Shown here: positions 12,688 to 32,099 of the stretch, one piece after another
Position numbering within the stretch: position 1 is the stretch's first letter
Layout: each line of letters starts with the position of its first letter
NCBI GenBank assembly: GCA_017442105.1
Contig: JAFSAX010000027.1
Span: 1 to 33,460 of the forward strand
From: Selenomonadales bacterium
GTDB taxonomy: Bacteria > Bacillota > Negativicutes > RGIG982
DNA: 33,460 bases
Direction: 5' to 3'
Program-made: the position numbers and the translations under genes
The notes under the pieces: generated by a model
The model's input: only the letters and a program-made list of their open reading frames with translations
Databases searched by the model: none
What the model was told of the DNA's origin: nothing

Positions 12688-13442
12688 GGCGTTCCCTCTT
12701 CTTTCGTCATATTATGGTACGACAATATTTCTTCGCTGTATGTGCCGTCCGCTTCCATCAGGATGAGCGGCGGCATGACTTGAAGCCCGGGCTTGGCACC
12801 TTTGACTGCTTCGACCATGAACATCGACGGCGGGAGCTTTCGGTTCGGATAGACCATACGAAGCCGTTTCGGTTCAAGGTTCATGTCATGCAGAAGGCCG
12901 AGTATCTCGACCATGCGCTCGGGCAAGTGTATCATGGCAAAGCGACCGCGATATTTTACGAGATAGTGTGCCGCCCGCACGAAGTCGGCCAGACTTGCCG
13001 TGATCTCGTGGCGTGCTCTGGCTACGTCGTCAAGTGCGGCGATCTTGCCTGTATCGACGACACGATACGGCGGATTCGATACGACAAGGTCTGCTGATTC
13101 CGCCGCAAAATCGCTTCTGATATCACAGACATCTCCGCAGACGACGTTCATCACGTCTTCCATCTTGTTAAGGCGTACGTTGCGCGCGGCAAGGTCGGCC
13201 ATAGCAGGGTTCTGCTCAAGTGCCGTGACTTTTCGCGCACCGCGCTTCGCCACAAGGAGGCTGATGATGCCTGTCCCTGTGCCGAGGTCAATGGCGCGTG
13301 TTTTGTCCGTTACGTGCGCGAACTGCGATAAGATGATCGCGTCCATGCCGTAACGGAATCCTTTTTTCTTCTGGATCAGATGGATACCGTCCATCTTGAT
13401 ATCTTCGAGTGTTTCTTCCTGCTCATTCAGCAGATCATGCAT
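12684..13442 (-). CDS. tRNA1(Val) (adenine-N6) methyltransferase-like protein (YabB/TrmN6)
   Basis: A 252-residue SAM-dependent methyltransferase. Motif I is DLGTGTG (52-58) and motif IV is NPPY (123-126), the N6-adenine type. The N-terminal HLIQKKKGFRYGMDAIIL is typical of the TrmN6/YabB group, which modifies A37 of tRNA1(Val) in E. coli. The open frame extends upstream, but the ATG at 13442 has an SD-like GGTGG and overlaps ricT by only 8 nt. Its position between ricT and rsmI matches B. subtilis yabB. The target in this organism is inferred from the family. Confidence 0.88.
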   Translation of the reverse strand: MHDLLNEQEETLEDIKMDGIHLIQKKKGFRYGMDAIILSQFAHVTDKTRAIDLGTGTGIISLLVAKRGARKVTALEQNPAMADLAARNVRLNKMEDVMNVVCGDVCDIRSDFAAESADLVVSNPPYRVVDTGKIAALDDVARARHEITASLADFVRAAHYLVKYRGRFAMIHLPERMVEILGLLHDMNLEPKRLRMVYPNRKLPPSMFMVEAVKGAKPGLQVMPPLILMEADGTYSEEILSYHNMTKEEGTP

Positions 13443-14250
13443 CTTCTTTTTCCACCGCGTCTTCCCAATCGATGGTGACTGTCTTACCGCCTTCGAACAA
13501 GCGGATCGTCGCCGTCTGTTTGTTCTTCGAGATAGAAAGCACTTTGCCTTCACCGCTCATCGTAACGACGACAGCACCGACTTTCGGCGGCTGTGCTTTT
13601 TTTGTACATTCCGAGTAGCAATCGTTCTCGTACTTCAGACAGCACATCAAGCGGCCGCAGATACCCGAGATTTTGGTCGGGTTCAAGGAAAGGTTCTGGT
13701 CTTTGGCCATGCGGATAGACACCGGCTCGAAGTCGCCGAGGAACGATGCACAGCAAAGCTCGCGGCCGCAGCAGCCGATACCGCCGACCATTTTTGCTTC
13801 GTCGCGTACACCGATCTGTCTTAATTCGATGCGCGTGCGGAATACTGCCGCGAGGTCTTTGACGAGGTCGCGGAAGTCGATTCGGCCGTCTGCCGTGAAG
13901 TAGAAGATGATCTTATTGACATCGAACGTATATTCGACATTGACGAGTTTCATCGGCAGTTCGTGTGCCGCAATTTTTTGTTCGCAGATACGGAACGCAT
14001 CTTTTTCGCGGCGTTTGTTGTCTGCCACTTTTTTCATATCCGCAGGTGTTGCCTTGCGAACGACGTTTTTGAGCGGTGTGATGATCTTATCTTCCGCTAC
14101 TTCGCGCGGGCCGATAACGACAAGGCCATGCTCCAGACCGCGCGCCGTTTCAACGATGACGTGATCTTCTTTGGCGAGCTCGATCTCGCCCGGGTTAAAA
14201 TAATATATTTTGCCCGCTTCTTTGAAACGGACACCGACTACTAATTGCAT
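13435..14250 (-). CDS. ricT: RicT/YaaT, PSP1-domain protein
   Basis: In B. subtilis RicT (YaaT) forms a complex with RicA and RicF that carries Fe-S clusters and promotes RNase Y-dependent mRNA maturation, and so affects sporulation and biofilm. The 271-residue protein has the PSP1 C-terminal domain and nine conserved cysteines: C160, C161, C166, C167, C198, C203, C204, C211 and C215, in GGIGCCGRELCC and GICGRLMCC contexts. The ATG at 14250 follows AAAGGAG and is 2 nt past the holB stop. Upstream in-frame codons would overlap holB. The gene lies directly before yabB; yabA is missing here. Confidence 0.93.
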   Translation of the reverse strand: MQLVVGVRFKEAGKIYYFNPGEIELAKEDHVIVETARGLEHGLVVIGPREVAEDKIITPLKNVVRKATPADMKKVADNKRREKDAFRICEQKIAAHELPMKLVNVEYTFDVNKIIFYFTADGRIDFRDLVKDLAAVFRTRIELRQIGVRDEAKMVGGIGCCGRELCCASFLGDFEPVSIRMAKDQNLSLNPTKISGICGRLMCCLKYENDCYSECTKKAQPPKVGAVVVTMSGEGKVLSISKNKQTATIRLFEGGKTVTIDWEDAVEKEDA

Positions 14251-14252
14251 AG

Positions 14253-15239
14253 TTATCTCCTTTGTATCATACTTCTCCATGCGAGAAGCATGGCTTCTAT
14301 GACAAGTTTGATATTACCGTTATTTTTGACAGATTGTTCTCTTTTTACCAGTTCACGCATAAACAGGCTGAGTGTTCGCTGTGACCATACGTTTTTTGCT
14401 TGAGCGAATCGTTCAAGGCAATCGGAGTTGATGATCTGTTCATCAAGGTCTGCCGCGTATACCATCGCATCGCGCACGAGAAGCTTGAGGCTCCCCAGTC
14501 GTCTGAGCACTTCATCGCGCTCGCACATATCCCACGCACTTGCCGTTTGCCAGATATCTTTCTCCGACATCGTCACCATACGAAAGAACAGATCTATCGC
14601 CGCCTGCCGCCCCGATTGTCCGTCCTCGGCGAGGATCTCTTCGGCAGGTGCGAATCGTCCGCCCGCCAATCTCGCCGCGAGAAAAGCATCTTTTTCATTT
14701 GCTCCGCGTCTGACAAGCTCGCTCGCAAGCGCGTCCCACGGCACAGAGCCGAATTGGACGAGCATGCAGCGCGACCGTATCGTATCGAGGAGCTGATACC
14801 GCTTTGCCGTGATGAGGATGAATACGACATCTCCGACAGGCTCTTCGAGCGTCTTTAGAATACTGTTGGCGGCCTCGTCGCGCATCTTGTCGGCTTCATC
14901 AATGATGCATACGCGACGCTCGGCCATATACGGCGCAAGCGACAAGTCCTTCTGCATCTTGCGTATCTCACCGATCTTGATATTCTGTTTGTCGGGCCTT
15001 ACAACGACAAGGTCGGGATGCGACTCATTTTCTACCATTCGGCACGATCGGCACGTACCACACGGCGCATCGCCGCTTTCACACAAGAGTGCGGCAGCTA
15101 GCGTTTTAGCCGCAAGATATTTGCCAACGCTCTCGGGGCCTGCAAAGAGAAGTGCATGCGGCATACGTTCACCCTTGCAAAGTTTCCGCAAGCGACCGAC
15201 AGCGTCCTCTTGACCGACGATCGACGACCAACCGATCAT
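14253..15239 (-). CDS. holB: DNA polymerase III subunit delta-prime
   Basis: The delta-prime subunit of the clamp loader, which opens and loads the beta clamp. The 328-residue AAA+ protein has a degenerate Walker A, GPESVGKY (34-41), with tyrosine where Ser/Thr would bind Mg-ATP; delta-prime is normally non-hydrolysing. The zinc module has C53, C60, C63 and C66, and an IIDEAD Walker-B-like stretch and an SRC segment follow. The ATG overlaps the yaaR stop as ATGA. The yaaR-holB-yaaT order is that of B. subtilis. Confidence 0.94.
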   Translation of the reverse strand: MIGWSSIVGQEDAVGRLRKLCKGERMPHALLFAGPESVGKYLAAKTLAAALLCESGDAPCGTCRSCRMVENESHPDLVVVRPDKQNIKIGEIRKMQKDLSLAPYMAERRVCIIDEADKMRDEAANSILKTLEEPVGDVVFILITAKRYQLLDTIRSRCMLVQFGSVPWDALASELVRRGANEKDAFLAARLAGGRFAPAEEILAEDGQSGRQAAIDLFFRMVTMSEKDIWQTASAWDMCERDEVLRRLGSLKLLVRDAMVYAADLDEQIINSDCLERFAQAKNVWSQRTLSLFMRELVKREQSVKNNGNIKLVIEAMLLAWRSMIQRR

Positions 15240-15643
15240 TTGAATACCCTCTCCAACTGTTCGTACAGTTTATCTTGACGCTCTGTGATACGCGAACGTG
15301 CGACTTTACCCGTACGGATATCTTCGCCCAACTCACTGAGGATCTTATCCATCTTGCGAAGCGATTCATAGACGTTCTTCTTGCCGAATGCCGTCCACTC
15401 CGTACGCTCTGAGTGTGTATACTTTTGAGAGATATACAGACCGACGACCTCGCGAATGACCTCGCGATATGATTTCAATCCGCTGTAAGTCGGTGCTTCG
15501 CAAAGCTCTTGACCCTGCTCGATGATACGTGCGATAGATTCTTCTACCTGCACCGACATTTTTCCATTCTTGCCCAACGAAAGCGAACGTAACCGTCCGA
15601 ACGAATAATGGCCTTCTCGGTCGCCTATTTTTTTGATAACCAC
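15236..15643 (-). CDS. yaaR: YaaR-like protein (DUF327)
   Basis: A 135-residue, largely helical, highly charged protein of the DUF327/YaaR family, of unknown function and conserved next to holB in Bacillota. It shows LKSYREVIREVVGLYISQKY in the middle and ends in a charged helix (ITERQDKLYEQLERVF). I chose the GTG at 15643 because AAAGGCGG lies 8 nt before it; the ATG further upstream at 15697 would lie in the hairpin at 15676-15717. It overlaps holB by 4 nt, so holB is probably translated by coupling. Confidence 0.85.
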   Translation of the reverse strand: MVIKKIGDREGHYSFGRLRSLSLGKNGKMSVQVEESIARIIEQGQELCEAPTYSGLKSYREVIREVVGLYISQKYTHSERTEWTAFGKKNVYESLRKMDKILSELGEDIRTGKVARSRITERQDKLYEQLERVFK

Positions 15644-15675
15644 GGCACCTTCCGCCTTTCTGTATAACACAATAT

Positions 15676-15717
15676 AGCATAATGCCCCTCCTGCCATAAC
15701 GCAGAAGGCACTATGCT
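15676..15717. repeat. Long imperfect hairpin between kinase-like gene and yaaR
   Basis: Arms 15676-15694 and 15701-15717 pair as AGCATA/TATGCT, TGCC/GGCA and an inner CTGC/GCAG block around a 6-nt loop. No T-run follows on either strand, so it is not a classical terminator. It could be a processing site or a leader structure of yaaR. Confidence 0.6.
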
Positions 15718-15756: not shown

Positions 15757-16347
15757 TTATTTCTGACGCGCACGAAGAATCAATTCCGATATCTCTGCCA
15801 CACACGCATCAAGGTCGATATTCGTATGCGGTGCGATGTGAAGCTCGGCGAGCTTTTCTTCCGTAAAATCTTCTTCATCGGCAAGGAATCGTCTGCACAC
15901 CTCTCGATAGTTCGGCTTTGCCTGCGCCTTTTCGCGACGAATAAGACGCATCAGTCGTTCTTCATCATCGACCGCCAGATAAACAGGTACGACCTTATCC
16001 GCGCCGTAATAGTCGCGAAGTGCCACGTACGATTCGAGCGTGCCGATGAGAAGATAATCCCCGCCCGCGAAGTCTACCTGTCCGTCGTCCATCGTAAAGT
16101 AATGCCAATCGCCGAATACCGTATGATAGGTACGCGATTCGATCATGCGTCCGCTCTTTTTCAGCTCGCGAAACGCTTCTACCGAGCGGAAATGGTATTC
16201 GCGCCCGTCAATCTCACCGCTCCGCTGTGGTCTTGTCGTATAAGTCACGACAGAACCGAGGTCGAGCGACTTATCCGCCATCAAGCGAGCAAAGACCGTA
16301 TCCTTGCCCGCGCTGCTTTTGCCAAGAAGGCAGTATAATCTTCCCAT
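15757..16347 (-). CDS. Guanylate kinase-like P-loop protein
   Basis: A 196-residue P-loop kinase-like protein. The Walker A reads GKSSAGKD (9-16), with Asp where Ser/Thr is usual. YTTRPQRSGEIDGREYHF matches the GMP-binding segment of guanylate kinases (TTRxxRxGExxGxxYxF). The C-terminal part diverges from housekeeping Gmk. It stands where B. subtilis has tmk, between the yaaO-like decarboxylase and yaaR, so it may be a nucleotide-kinase paralogue rather than the cell's main Gmk. The ATG shares a base with the decarboxylase stop (TGATG). Substrate not assignable from sequence alone. Confidence 0.75.
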   Translation of the reverse strand: MGRLYCLLGKSSAGKDTVFARLMADKSLDLGSVVTYTTRPQRSGEIDGREYHFRSVEAFRELKKSGRMIESRTYHTVFGDWHYFTMDDGQVDFAGGDYLLIGTLESYVALRDYYGADKVVPVYLAVDDEERLMRLIRREKAQAKPNYREVCRRFLADEEDFTEEKLAELHIAPHTNIDLDACVAEISELILRARQK

Positions 16348-17864
16348 CAGTTTCTCTCCTTCTCTGCCAGTATCGTCCGAAGACTTCTGTCCATCGGCCC
16401 CGAAACGAACAGCCCTGCGTCCATACGACGGCGGCAATAGTCGATCGCCTCTGTCGTGATGCGCTCACCGGGACAAAGTACAGGGATGCCCGGCGGATAG
16501 AACGTCACGACTTCTGCCGCGATGCGTCCTGCCGACGCAGCAAAGTCTATCTTCTCGCGCTCGGCGTAGAGCGCTGCCCTAGGACTTGTCACCACCTCGG
16601 GAAGGCCTATCTCATCGCATGCGATATCATCAAGCACCACTCCCGTACGAAGCTCATCTGCCATCTCGCGGATAGCCACGAGCAGTCTGTCGATCGACTC
16701 ATCCGTATCGCCGACTGTGATAAGAAACAGCACGTTATAGTAATCGCACAGCTCCGATTCGATGCCTTTTTGGCGCAGAACGGCTTCTGCCTGTGCGCCC
16801 GTCACACCAAGACCGCTGACCGTCACCGTCACCTTCGTTTCGTCAAAGTCATAGATACCATACTGACCGATCCGCTCTCTGCCGAACGAAAATAGCCCGT
16901 CTATCCGATTGACCTCATCTCTGAGTCTGCGTGCCAACCGAAGCGTTCTTTCCATGAGTGCCTCTCCCTGTTCTTCCATCAGCGCACGCGCACCATCGAT
17001 CGAAGCCATCAGAATATAGTTTGGGCTTGTCGATTGCGTCAGCTGGAGCATCTGCAAGACCCGCTCGCGCGGTACACGTTCACCCTGCCTTAAAAGAAGC
17101 GACGCTTGCGTCATCGCAGGCAGAAGCTTATGCGTGCTCTGCGCCGCCAGATCGGCTCCTGCTTCCATCGCCGACATCGGAAGATCGTCTGCGAACATAA
17201 GATGTGGTCCATGTGCTTCGTCTACCAAGACGACCATACCGCGCTCGTGTGCAAGCCGTACGATCTCTCCGATATCACCGCACGCACCGTAATACGTCGG
17301 ATTGACTACGAATACTGCCTTCGCATCGGGATGCTCTTCCATCGTCGCCAGATACGCCTGCGGCGATGTACCGTGCGCCAATCCAAGCGCGTCGTCTACT
17401 TCGGGACGCACCCAGACAGGTATCGCATCGGCAAGGATGATGCCGCCGATGACCGACCGATGCGCCGTACGCGGCACGATGATCTTCTCTGAGGGGCGCA
17501 CCGACGCGAGTATCATCGCATGGATAGCACCTGTCGTACCGTTCACCGCGAAAAAGGCATCGTCTGCACCGTAAAGGCTTGCCGCCATCTGTTCTGCTTC
17601 CAAGAGGCACCCTTCGGGATCGTTGAGATCATCAAGCGCACTCATCAGTGACACGTCCATCTGAAGCCCCTTCTCCGTCAGCATCGTTCGCATAGACGGA
17701 TGTACCGTCACGCCATGCTTGTGTCCCGGTGTATGGTACGGTGCCATGTCGAGCGCGTGATACGATTCCATCGCCTCGATCAGTGGGGCACGTACTTTAC
17801 TATGTTTTTCGGTATTCGGCTCATCGTCTGTTATGCCGTTTATCTTCTGCTCATATTTGTCCAC
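16347..17864 (-). CDS. Orn/Lys/Arg decarboxylase family protein (YaaO-like)
   Basis: A PLP-dependent fold-type I enzyme of the short Orn/Lys/Arg decarboxylase family (about 505 residues). Landmarks are PYHTPGHKHG near residue 43, VNGTTGA near 108, LVDEAHG (D215-H218) and the PLP lysine in STHKLLPA (K246). The C-terminal domain ends with FYPPGIPVLCPGE, typical of the group. Family members make cadaverine, agmatine or other polyamines; in Negativicutes cadaverine is attached to peptidoglycan, which is only a possible link here. The start is uncertain: GTG at 17864 (10 nt after AAGGGG) is my choice, with TTG 6 nt upstream and ATG at 17918 as alternatives. First gene of the operon running to rsmI. 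Confidence 0.88.
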   Translation of the reverse strand: MDKYEQKINGITDDEPNTEKHSKVRAPLIEAMESYHALDMAPYHTPGHKHGVTVHPSMRTMLTEKGLQMDVSLMSALDDLNDPEGCLLEAEQMAASLYGADDAFFAVNGTTGAIHAMILASVRPSEKIIVPRTAHRSVIGGIILADAIPVWVRPEVDDALGLAHGTSPQAYLATMEEHPDAKAVFVVNPTYYGACGDIGEIVRLAHERGMVVLVDEAHGPHLMFADDLPMSAMEAGADLAAQSTHKLLPAMTQASLLLRQGERVPRERVLQMLQLTQSTSPNYILMASIDGARALMEEQGEALMERTLRLARRLRDEVNRIDGLFSFGRERIGQYGIYDFDETKVTVTVSGLGVTGAQAEAVLRQKGIESELCDYYNVLFLITVGDTDESIDRLLVAIREMADELRTGVVLDDIACDEIGLPEVVTSPRAALYAEREKIDFAASAGRIAAEVVTFYPPGIPVLCPGERITTEAIDYCRRRMDAGLFVSGPMDRSLRTILAEKERN

Positions 17865-17884
17865 AATCAAAAATCCCCTTACAC

Positions 17885-17905
17885 GCCTGTTATTACAGGC
17901 TTTTT
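17885..17905 (+). terminator. Small hairpin with T-run in the decarboxylase 5' leader
   Basis: GCCTGT-TATT-ACAGGC followed by TTTTT reads as a compact plus-strand terminator, yet no plus-strand gene precedes it. On the minus strand the same hairpin lies in the 5' UTR just before the decarboxylase SD, where it could affect mRNA stability. Confidence 0.5.
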
Positions 17906-17910
17906 GCAAC

Positions 17911-18065
17911 TTATCCACTTTTTATTCAAATCTGTGGATAACTTTGTTTATATGTGTATAAACGCTTGTTTTTCAAGGCATTTGTAATTCTTCGTTAAAA
18001 ACTATCCACAGAAATCATTGTGGACGGCTCTCCCGTCTGTGGATATCTGTGGATAATGTGGATAT
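17911..18065. promoter_or_regulatory. DnaA-box cluster
   Basis: Seven 9-mers match TTATCCACA with at most one mismatch in 155 nt. They are: 17911-17919 (plus), 17933-17941 (minus, perfect), 17953-17961 (minus, TTATACACA, which fits TTWTNCACA), 18002-18010 (plus), 18038-18046 (minus), 18048-18056 (minus, perfect) and 18057-18065 (minus). The last three are almost contiguous. An eighth weaker site, GTATACACA, is at 18151-18159. DnaA binding is inferred from the consensus. Confidence 0.8.
17947..17976 (-). promoter_or_regulatory. Sigma-A promoter of the decarboxylase-holB operon
   Basis: TTGAAA (17971-17976), an 18-nt spacer and TATAAA (17947-17952). The DnaA box at 17953-17961 lies in the spacer and the box at 17933-17941 at the expected start site, so DnaA could control it. 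Confidence 0.6.
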
Positions 18066-18447
18066 TCTTTATTCGATTACGCTCTGTACATCTTCTCGGA
18101 CAACGCATCACGCACTTCGTATTCCGCCAAATATCGCTGTCATCGCCGATGTATACACAGCGCAGACAGGTGTCAAAATGATGTCACCTATCTGAAGCGA
18201 AACGACCGTTTTATCGCAAAAACGGTGTCAAACGCGTCATGTTCCGACACAGTATACGCCTCCGGCACCATTCTCTGCCATGCATCGCATCGAGTTCGAA
18301 TTTTTATCAGCCGAGCAATATCTCCGCGCATATGCCGTAAATGCCGTCCCCTACGAAGTACCATCGACACGCATCCGATATCGCTGTTTCGCCGTTTGCG
18401 CATCTTTTGATATGTTATGATTGTATCATAAATCGAAGATATCTGCG
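18066..18447. other. Intergenic region between DnaA-box cluster and cca
   Basis: There is no convincing gene. Two inverted repeats lie here: CAGACAGGTGTCA (18163-18175) with an 11/13 complementary arm at 18182-18194, and ACCGTTTT (18205-18212) with AAAACGGT (18219-18226). One plus-strand frame from about 18059 to 18420 has gene-like codon choice but contains an internal TGA and lacks a ribosome-binding site, so it may be a gene remnant. Confidence 0.4.
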
Positions 18448-19872
18448 CTATTTTTCCACCGAAACGACTGCGTTTTTTTCCGTTTGCCTGCGGTATGATT
18501 TTTCGGCCGCCGCCAAGAGTACACCTCGCTCATTGATGAGTTCGCCTTGGCTCACGCGGTGCAGAAGTGTGTCAAGCATCTGTCCGACAGCCTGTCCGTC
18601 ACCCAAGATGGGCATAAGATCGCGTCCGCCGACTGCCAGCTCACGCACATAGAGAGCCGTAGATTCTGCCAGTCGAAACACTTCGGCGAACAGCTCATCT
18701 CGCCCGCGCCCTTCGCATCGTCCAGTTCCGATATCGTCGGCACAGAGGAGCGCATTTAGCTGACGGAGCGCATCGAGCAGTTCTTCTTTCGTGCGATGAT
18801 CGGTCGCTCTTTTTTTGAGCCAACGGAGCGCGCCTTTTTGATTGACAGGCGCACAGCCCATATGTTCGCGTACGAGCCACGATACGCGTGCGACCATCTG
18901 TTTCGGATATCCGAGCCTTGTCAAAATGTCACGTGCCATGAGCGCACCTGCCGCCGCGTGTCCGTGGTCGGTCGGCTGTCCGTTCTTTTCACCGCGGATA
19001 CCGTCGGTTCCCTTAGCCACGTCATGGAGGAGAGCTGCCCACCGCACGGTAAGCTCCGCAGGCACAGCTTCTACGACAGCGAGCGTATGATGCCAGCCGT
19101 CGTACTTGTGGTAGAGCGGATTCTGCGGCAAGTCTACGAGATGGCGAAGTTCCGGAAGGACTGCGACTTCGCGCACTTTTCCGCGTTCGCGTACCGTCAC
19201 GGACGCATCAAGAAGGCCGCTGTCCATCATCGCCGACAGACCGCGCGCAGGATGCGGGGATATGAGCGTTTTATCAAGCTCACTGCGCACACGTTCGACC
19301 GATAGTCCGCGCACACGCGAGAGGTTATGCGCGATGGCAGGAACGATCGCCTCGTCTAAGTCGAAGCCAAGCTGTGCGCTGAGCCGACACGCACGATACG
19401 CTCTGAGGGCATCTTCAGCAAAACGATCTTTCGCATCACCGATACAACGTACGATGCGCGCCTTGATGTCAGTCACACCGCCGACAAGGTCGATGACCGT
19501 ACCGTCTCTGTGCATCGCAAGACCGTTCATCGTAAAGTCGCGCCGTTTGACATCTTCTTCGAGCGATACGCCGTAACAGACTTCGCTCGGACGATGGCTG
19601 TCCGTGCCGTACGATTCCGAGCGGAAGGTGACGACTTCGTACGATCTGTCCGCTACCGTCACGATGATACAACCGAACGCTCTGCCGACTTCGCTTGTGC
19701 GCCAACCGTTTATTTCGGCTGCGCGCATGATCTCGTCGGGAAGTGCAGACGTGCAGATGTCGATATCGTGGCAAGGCCGCCCAAGGAGCGTATCACGCAC
19801 GATGCCGCCGATCAGATACGCTTCGTGTCCTTCTGCCATAAGTGCACCTAATATCCTTTTCGCATATTCCAT
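18448..19872 (-). CDS. cca: CCA tRNA nucleotidyltransferase
   Basis: Adds or repairs the 3' CCA of tRNAs. The 474-residue class II nucleotidyltransferase begins with LIGGIVRDTLLG (20-31) and the catalytic DID (D36, D38), then RRDF (110-113) and the ARRAYR-like region ADALRAYRACRL. A C-terminal HD domain follows with WHHTL, LLHDVAK and HGHAAAGA, which can give 2',3'-phosphodiesterase activity. The ATG at 19872 is spaced correctly from AAAGGGGG; the two upstream ATGs are not. It is divergent from tspO and separated from the decarboxylase operon by the DnaA-box region. I see no terminator after it. Confidence 0.93.
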   Translation of the reverse strand: MEYAKRILGALMAEGHEAYLIGGIVRDTLLGRPCHDIDICTSALPDEIMRAAEINGWRTSEVGRAFGCIIVTVADRSYEVVTFRSESYGTDSHRPSEVCYGVSLEEDVKRRDFTMNGLAMHRDGTVIDLVGGVTDIKARIVRCIGDAKDRFAEDALRAYRACRLSAQLGFDLDEAIVPAIAHNLSRVRGLSVERVRSELDKTLISPHPARGLSAMMDSGLLDASVTVRERGKVREVAVLPELRHLVDLPQNPLYHKYDGWHHTLAVVEAVPAELTVRWAALLHDVAKGTDGIRGEKNGQPTDHGHAAAGALMARDILTRLGYPKQMVARVSWLVREHMGCAPVNQKGALRWLKKRATDHRTKEELLDALRQLNALLCADDIGTGRCEGRGRDELFAEVFRLAESTALYVRELAVGGRDLMPILGDGQAVGQMLDTLLHRVSQGELINERGVLLAAAEKSYRRQTEKNAVVSVEK

Positions 19873-19916
19873 CGTCATCCCCCTTTCCGCACACGCGCAC
19901 ATATTCATTATCTTTT

Positions 19917-31998: not shown

Positions 31999-32099
31999 CT
32001 CTCATCTACCAGGCATCTGCCTGCTGGATTTGGCACCACTGCATCTCTGCCGGTTGCCGGGCGTCATCGGGCCAGTCCCTCGACCTCTCTCGATAAGAG
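31999..32099 (-). promoter_or_regulatory. SAM-I (S-box) riboswitch aptamer
   Basis: The conserved S-box core is readable on the minus strand: CTTATCGAGAGAGGT, GAGGGACTGGCCC, GATGACGCCCGGCAACC, then the distal hairpins. P1 pairs CTCTTATC (32092-32099) with GATGAGAG (31999-32006). A 10-nt stretch of the P1 3' strand (31993-32002) is perfectly complementary to 31963-31972 in the terminator 5' arm, forming the antiterminator. With SAM bound the terminator forms and the met operon is shut off. Confidence 0.95.

Follow-up and report, generated by a model that had tools for sequence, protein, structure and literature searches.

A DnaA-box cluster outside oriC in a Selenomonadales bacterium, with counterparts at a syntenic place in several families of Negativicutes

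Clusters of DnaA boxes outside the origin of replication are described in Bacillus subtilis and Escherichia coli. Non-oriC clusters in B. subtilis include those at gcp/ydiF, sda-yqeG, ywlC, ywcI-vpr and yydA (Okumura et al. 2012, as cited in PMC5295017), and joint deletion of six of the clusters leads to early initiation (PMC5295017, PMC13220808). Regions outside oriC with strong in vitro DnaA binding were mapped in PMC4447404. The locus described here was found in a window of 33,460 bases, this being the whole stretch of DNA that was analysed, from a Selenomonadales bacterium. Like the B. subtilis clusters, which lie outside a bipartite oriC, it has several boxes, is intergenic and lies outside the origin, but it differs in locus as no top region in PMC4447404 adjoins holB, degS or ldc. 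A spacing pattern recurring across families is a further feature of the Negativicutes cluster that is unlike the B. subtilis clusters. E. coli datA is likewise a group of boxes outside oriC, and like it the window cluster could limit DnaA activity; datA, however, promotes ATP hydrolysis together with IHF (PMC5295017). DARS1 and DARS2 of E. coli resemble the window cluster in being non-coding DnaA-box arrays outside oriC but differ in that they reactivate DnaA. Judged by title and abstract, the few papers retrieved on Negativicutes/oriC and on Selenomonas do not deal with such clusters.

With a DnaA box taken as a 9-mer that differs from TTATCCACA at no more than one position, eight boxes, two of them perfect, were found within 209 bases (17857-18065, Table 1). 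The preliminary description had reported seven boxes in 17911-18065, two being perfect and the last three contiguous. All seven were found where they had been placed, and the box at 17857 is an eighth that was absent from that list. The entire window contains nine boxes, eight of which are inside the cluster. Among 300 sequences of 33 kb, simulated to have the first-order composition of the window, only one reached three boxes per 209 bases and none went higher, while in 20,000 sequences simulated from the composition of the cluster itself the maximum was never above three. Given the genome-wide count of 322 boxes in 1.71 Mb, about 0.04 boxes are expected in 17857-18065 and the Poisson probability of finding eight or more is about 1e-16. 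Both the simulations and the genome-wide density therefore exclude chance as the source of the cluster. On the minus strand downstream of the cluster the gene order is decarboxylase, guanylate-kinase-like, yaaR-like DUF327, holB and ricT. Neither an Rfam family nor a tRNA was found at the cluster locus. Elsewhere in the window a SAM riboswitch (RF00162) is present at 31999-32099 on the minus strand.

Table 1. Coordinates of the DnaA boxes and neighbouring features in the window.
Feature	Coordinates	Strand	Remark
ricT	13435..14280	-	
holB, DNA polymerase III delta-prime	14253..15239	-	
yaaR-like DUF327 protein	15236..15697	-	
Guanylate-kinase-like protein	15757..16437	-	Score below curated cut-off
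Orn/Lys/Arg-type decarboxylase, first gene after cluster	16347..17864	-	GTG start at 17864 inferred from AGGGG ribosome-binding-like site; ORF can extend to 17918
DnaA box TTGTCCACA	17857..17865	+	Overlaps likely GTG start of decarboxylase
DnaA box TTATCCACT	17911..17919	+	
Perfect DnaA box TTATCCACA	17933..17941	-	Near inferred transcription start
Promoter-like TTGAAA (17976-17971), 18-nt spacer, TATAAA (17952-17947)	17947..17976	-	Consensus match only
DnaA box TTATACACA	17953..17961	-	Abuts predicted -10
DnaA box CTATCCACA	18002..18010	+	
Three contiguous boxes ATATCCACA (18038), TTATCCACA (18048), ATATCCACA (18057)	18038..18065	-	
Decayed C-terminal remnant of PLP-dependent Orn/Lys decarboxylase (ldc-like, Pfam PF02784/PF00278 family)	18072..18387	-	Stops and frame change
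CCA tRNA nucleotidyltransferase-like gene, upstream side of cluster	18448..19908	-	

The region upstream of the decarboxylase was surveyed in nearly all of 60 relatives, together with 60 regions upstream of degS. Clusters lie between ldc, which in the relatives is a PLP-dependent Orn/Lys decarboxylase gene, and degS in G002, G005, G013, G017, G032, G164 and G165, which represent several Negativicutes families. In G123 the cluster is upstream of degS, in G029 and G052 it is directly upstream of the decarboxylase, and in G124 a similar array is found farther from degS with another ORF in between. G164, G165 and G123 were found via the box-spacing pattern and the other carriers via their genes, so these three count for the anatomy of the locus but not for its frequency. 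A check for conserved boxes in relatives thus gives clusters at the syntenic place in several families, and the cluster survives it. Many families are without a cluster at this locus. Nearly all of the other regions upstream of degS among the 60 surveyed have no box or one box, the exceptions being G018 (two boxes) and G136 (three dispersed boxes), and a scan of the named genomes returned only eight loci, mostly distant. In a tree made from the decarboxylase and HolB, the carriers G013, G017, G005 and G002 form one supported group, together with one f11 genome that has no cluster here. The genome of the window (G000) branches near this group and G032 branches elsewhere, and the six cluster carriers in the tree need four changes. 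An old element with a single origin and subsequent losses fits this tree and is plausible, and repeated gain is conceivable.

The gap between the CCA transferase gene and the cluster contains the ldc remnant, whose end is within a few bases of the outermost box. The remnant gave a two-piece tblastn match to the homologue in G002 (E 2e-10) and matches to those in G005, G017 and G013 with E values from 6e-10 to 3e-8. No match to degS over the cut-off was found in the genome of the window. In G032 the order is CCA transferase-ldc-[cluster]-degS, and the CCA neighbour upstream of ldc is the same as in the window. Taken most simply, the remnant, the lack of a degS match and the order in G032 suggest decay of ldc and loss of degS around a cluster that persisted. 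On this view the window has a degraded version of the ldc-[cluster]-degS locus, in which the cluster would have outlived both of its neighbours.

The relatives in distant families have in common the gene-strand spacing pattern +12+22-54-, to which 13+20- is often added. In G017, G164 and G005, the genomes from which the template was derived, six of seven or six of six boxes agree with this pattern. The window array matches three of the six slots exactly; the box at 17857 fills the distal '-54-' slot exactly and the box at 17911 fills the '+22-' slot. Random placements of eight boxes matched as well in 1.6% of cases with exact spacing and in 17% when a shift of ±1 base was allowed, for a template chosen after the relatives had been seen. 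Since a match to three of six slots is weak alone, the orthology of the window cluster rests mainly on synteny. The arrangement TGTGGATAA-N43..47-TGTGGATAA was present in 76 of 381 genomes of the class, dnaA-linked and other loci being mixed in this count, and the reversed control was present in none. The histogram of box spacings is biased by the selection of loci and was not used as a test. It could be proposed that the cluster is an ancient DnaA-controlling element of Negativicutes with the fixed grammar +12+22-54-13+20- (gene strand), retained independently of neighbouring genes and forming a defined DnaA oligomer that regulates initiation, i.e. a Firmicutes-side counterpart of datA. We regard this wider proposal as unlikely.

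Comparison of the congeners G029 and G052 showed identical boxes and 74.5% identity over the remainder of the array, though the box columns were picked by their match to the consensus and this favours the boxes somewhat. The spacers of G164 and G165 are 95% identical and thus too similar to inform. The window cluster has no footprint from a close relative, as the only genome of the same genus, G001, is without this stretch.

Box clusters were also observed at other loci. Two further clusters of the window's genome are conserved in the sister genome G001. One, with four boxes in a tyrosine-recombinase-like gene's leader (G000:C2:6-124, L004), is 100% identical in its boxes and 76% in the rest to G001:C70 (L218), and another four-box cluster (G000:C72:19218-19326, L009) is 97% identical in the boxes and 69% elsewhere to G001:C129 (L222). 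No perfect-box counterpart was seen in G001 for the seven boxes in 208 bases at G000:C199:5429-5636 (L015). Clusters 3' of polyphosphate kinase genes occur in G025, G059 and G020, with a like array in G006 (together L172, L152, L093, L173); these have the core pattern +12+22- and a distal box at 76 or 55. A box cluster just downstream of tsaD in G007 (L088) recalls the gcp/ydiF cluster of B. subtilis, and a large array lies downstream of an amino-acid permease gene in G164 (L147, contig C27).

The preliminary description suggested that DnaA could tie the expression of holB to initiation. In four carriers holB is missing from the examined stretch, namely G123 and G032, where the cluster is beside degS, and G029 and G052, where it is beside the decarboxylase. 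The decarboxylase-yaaR-holB run of G032 is some 12 kb from the cluster, and in G123 the decarboxylase is followed by thymidylate-kinase-like, Toprim/DUF4093 and rRNA dimethylase genes. Most of the surveyed decarboxylase-holB operons are without a cluster. Given these four carriers and the clusterless operons, coupling to holB is not what is conserved, and a conserved link between cluster and holB was rejected.

The alternative in the same description, a datA/DBC-like locus predicted to bind DnaA, is supported, and so is the reading of the locus as a non-oriC DnaA-box cluster. Its boxes are clustered well above chance and it is outside the dnaA-linked origin, as are the B. subtilis clusters. 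We consider it probable that this is an ancient cluster of the B. subtilis type that titrates DnaA and possibly also represses a local promoter. DnaA would bind the high-affinity boxes and oligomerise along the array, which would then act as a sink lowering free DnaA at oriC and so may affect the timing of initiation. If the array overlaps a promoter, which seems to be the case in the window, bound DnaA would also repress the decarboxylase operon. Retention of the cluster could instead reflect promoter control and not titration. The array would then be primarily a DnaA-regulated promoter, where DnaA near the -10 and the start represses, or in the relatives activates, the operon downstream (degS and/or the decarboxylase). 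DnaA is a known transcription factor (reviewed in PMC8203912), and the next conserved gene downstream in the syntenic cases is degS or the decarboxylase. The boxes earlier said to lie at the -10 are indeed there in the window, one abutting the -10 and another near the inferred start, but this promoter is predicted from a consensus match and was not reported by a stricter promoter scan, and the predicted promoters of the relatives are placed elsewhere relative to the boxes, so that the geometry looks different. The gene downstream also varies, being degS, the decarboxylase or, in G124, another ORF before degS, and four carriers have no holB close by. A primary role in promoter control is thus possible but doubtful.

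The ordered and oriented spacing conserved across families is what would be expected of a specific oligomer, and could point to an element like datA or DARS, one that alters the nucleotide state of DnaA and does not simply bind it. However, E. coli datA acts with IHF, and B. subtilis is without IHF, datA and DARS loci (PMC13220808), making such an element improbable. The array of the window is rearranged in comparison with the relatives and the adjoining ldc has already decayed, as might be seen if the cluster were a relic without function, or had survived by chance from an ancestral array. Arguing against a relic are the eight near-consensus boxes still present next to a gene that has accumulated stops and a frame change, and the conservation of boxes above spacers in the G029 and G052 array before the same decarboxylase. 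We give this explanation very little weight. Dense boxes in AT-rich DNA (65% AT) would also suit a second or alternative origin of replication. Contig C94 of this genome carries dnaA, which has four boxes upstream and four just downstream; this oriC has clustered DnaA boxes as the window cluster does but differs in that its boxes flank dnaA on both sides and in their order. The window cluster is neither next to dnaA nor at a change of strand bias. The genes on both sides are co-oriented, as they are in G017, G005 and G002, and the cumulative GC skew is still falling through 18 kb, with no minimum at the cluster and a shallow one in the window near 23-25 kb. In G017 and G005 the distances from cluster to dnaA are about 211 kb and 340 kb, roughly 8% of those genomes. 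The preliminary reading that this is not the main oriC is thus borne out, the main origin being ruled out by the dnaA elsewhere with its own boxes and by the co-oriented flanking genes, and an alternative origin is barely credible.

The restraint of initiation is poorly known outside E. coli and B. subtilis. A DnaA-box cluster that is found at one place across families, shares a spacing and appears to have outlived its neighbours would offer a concrete locus at which long-term selection on DnaA binding outside oriC may be tested.
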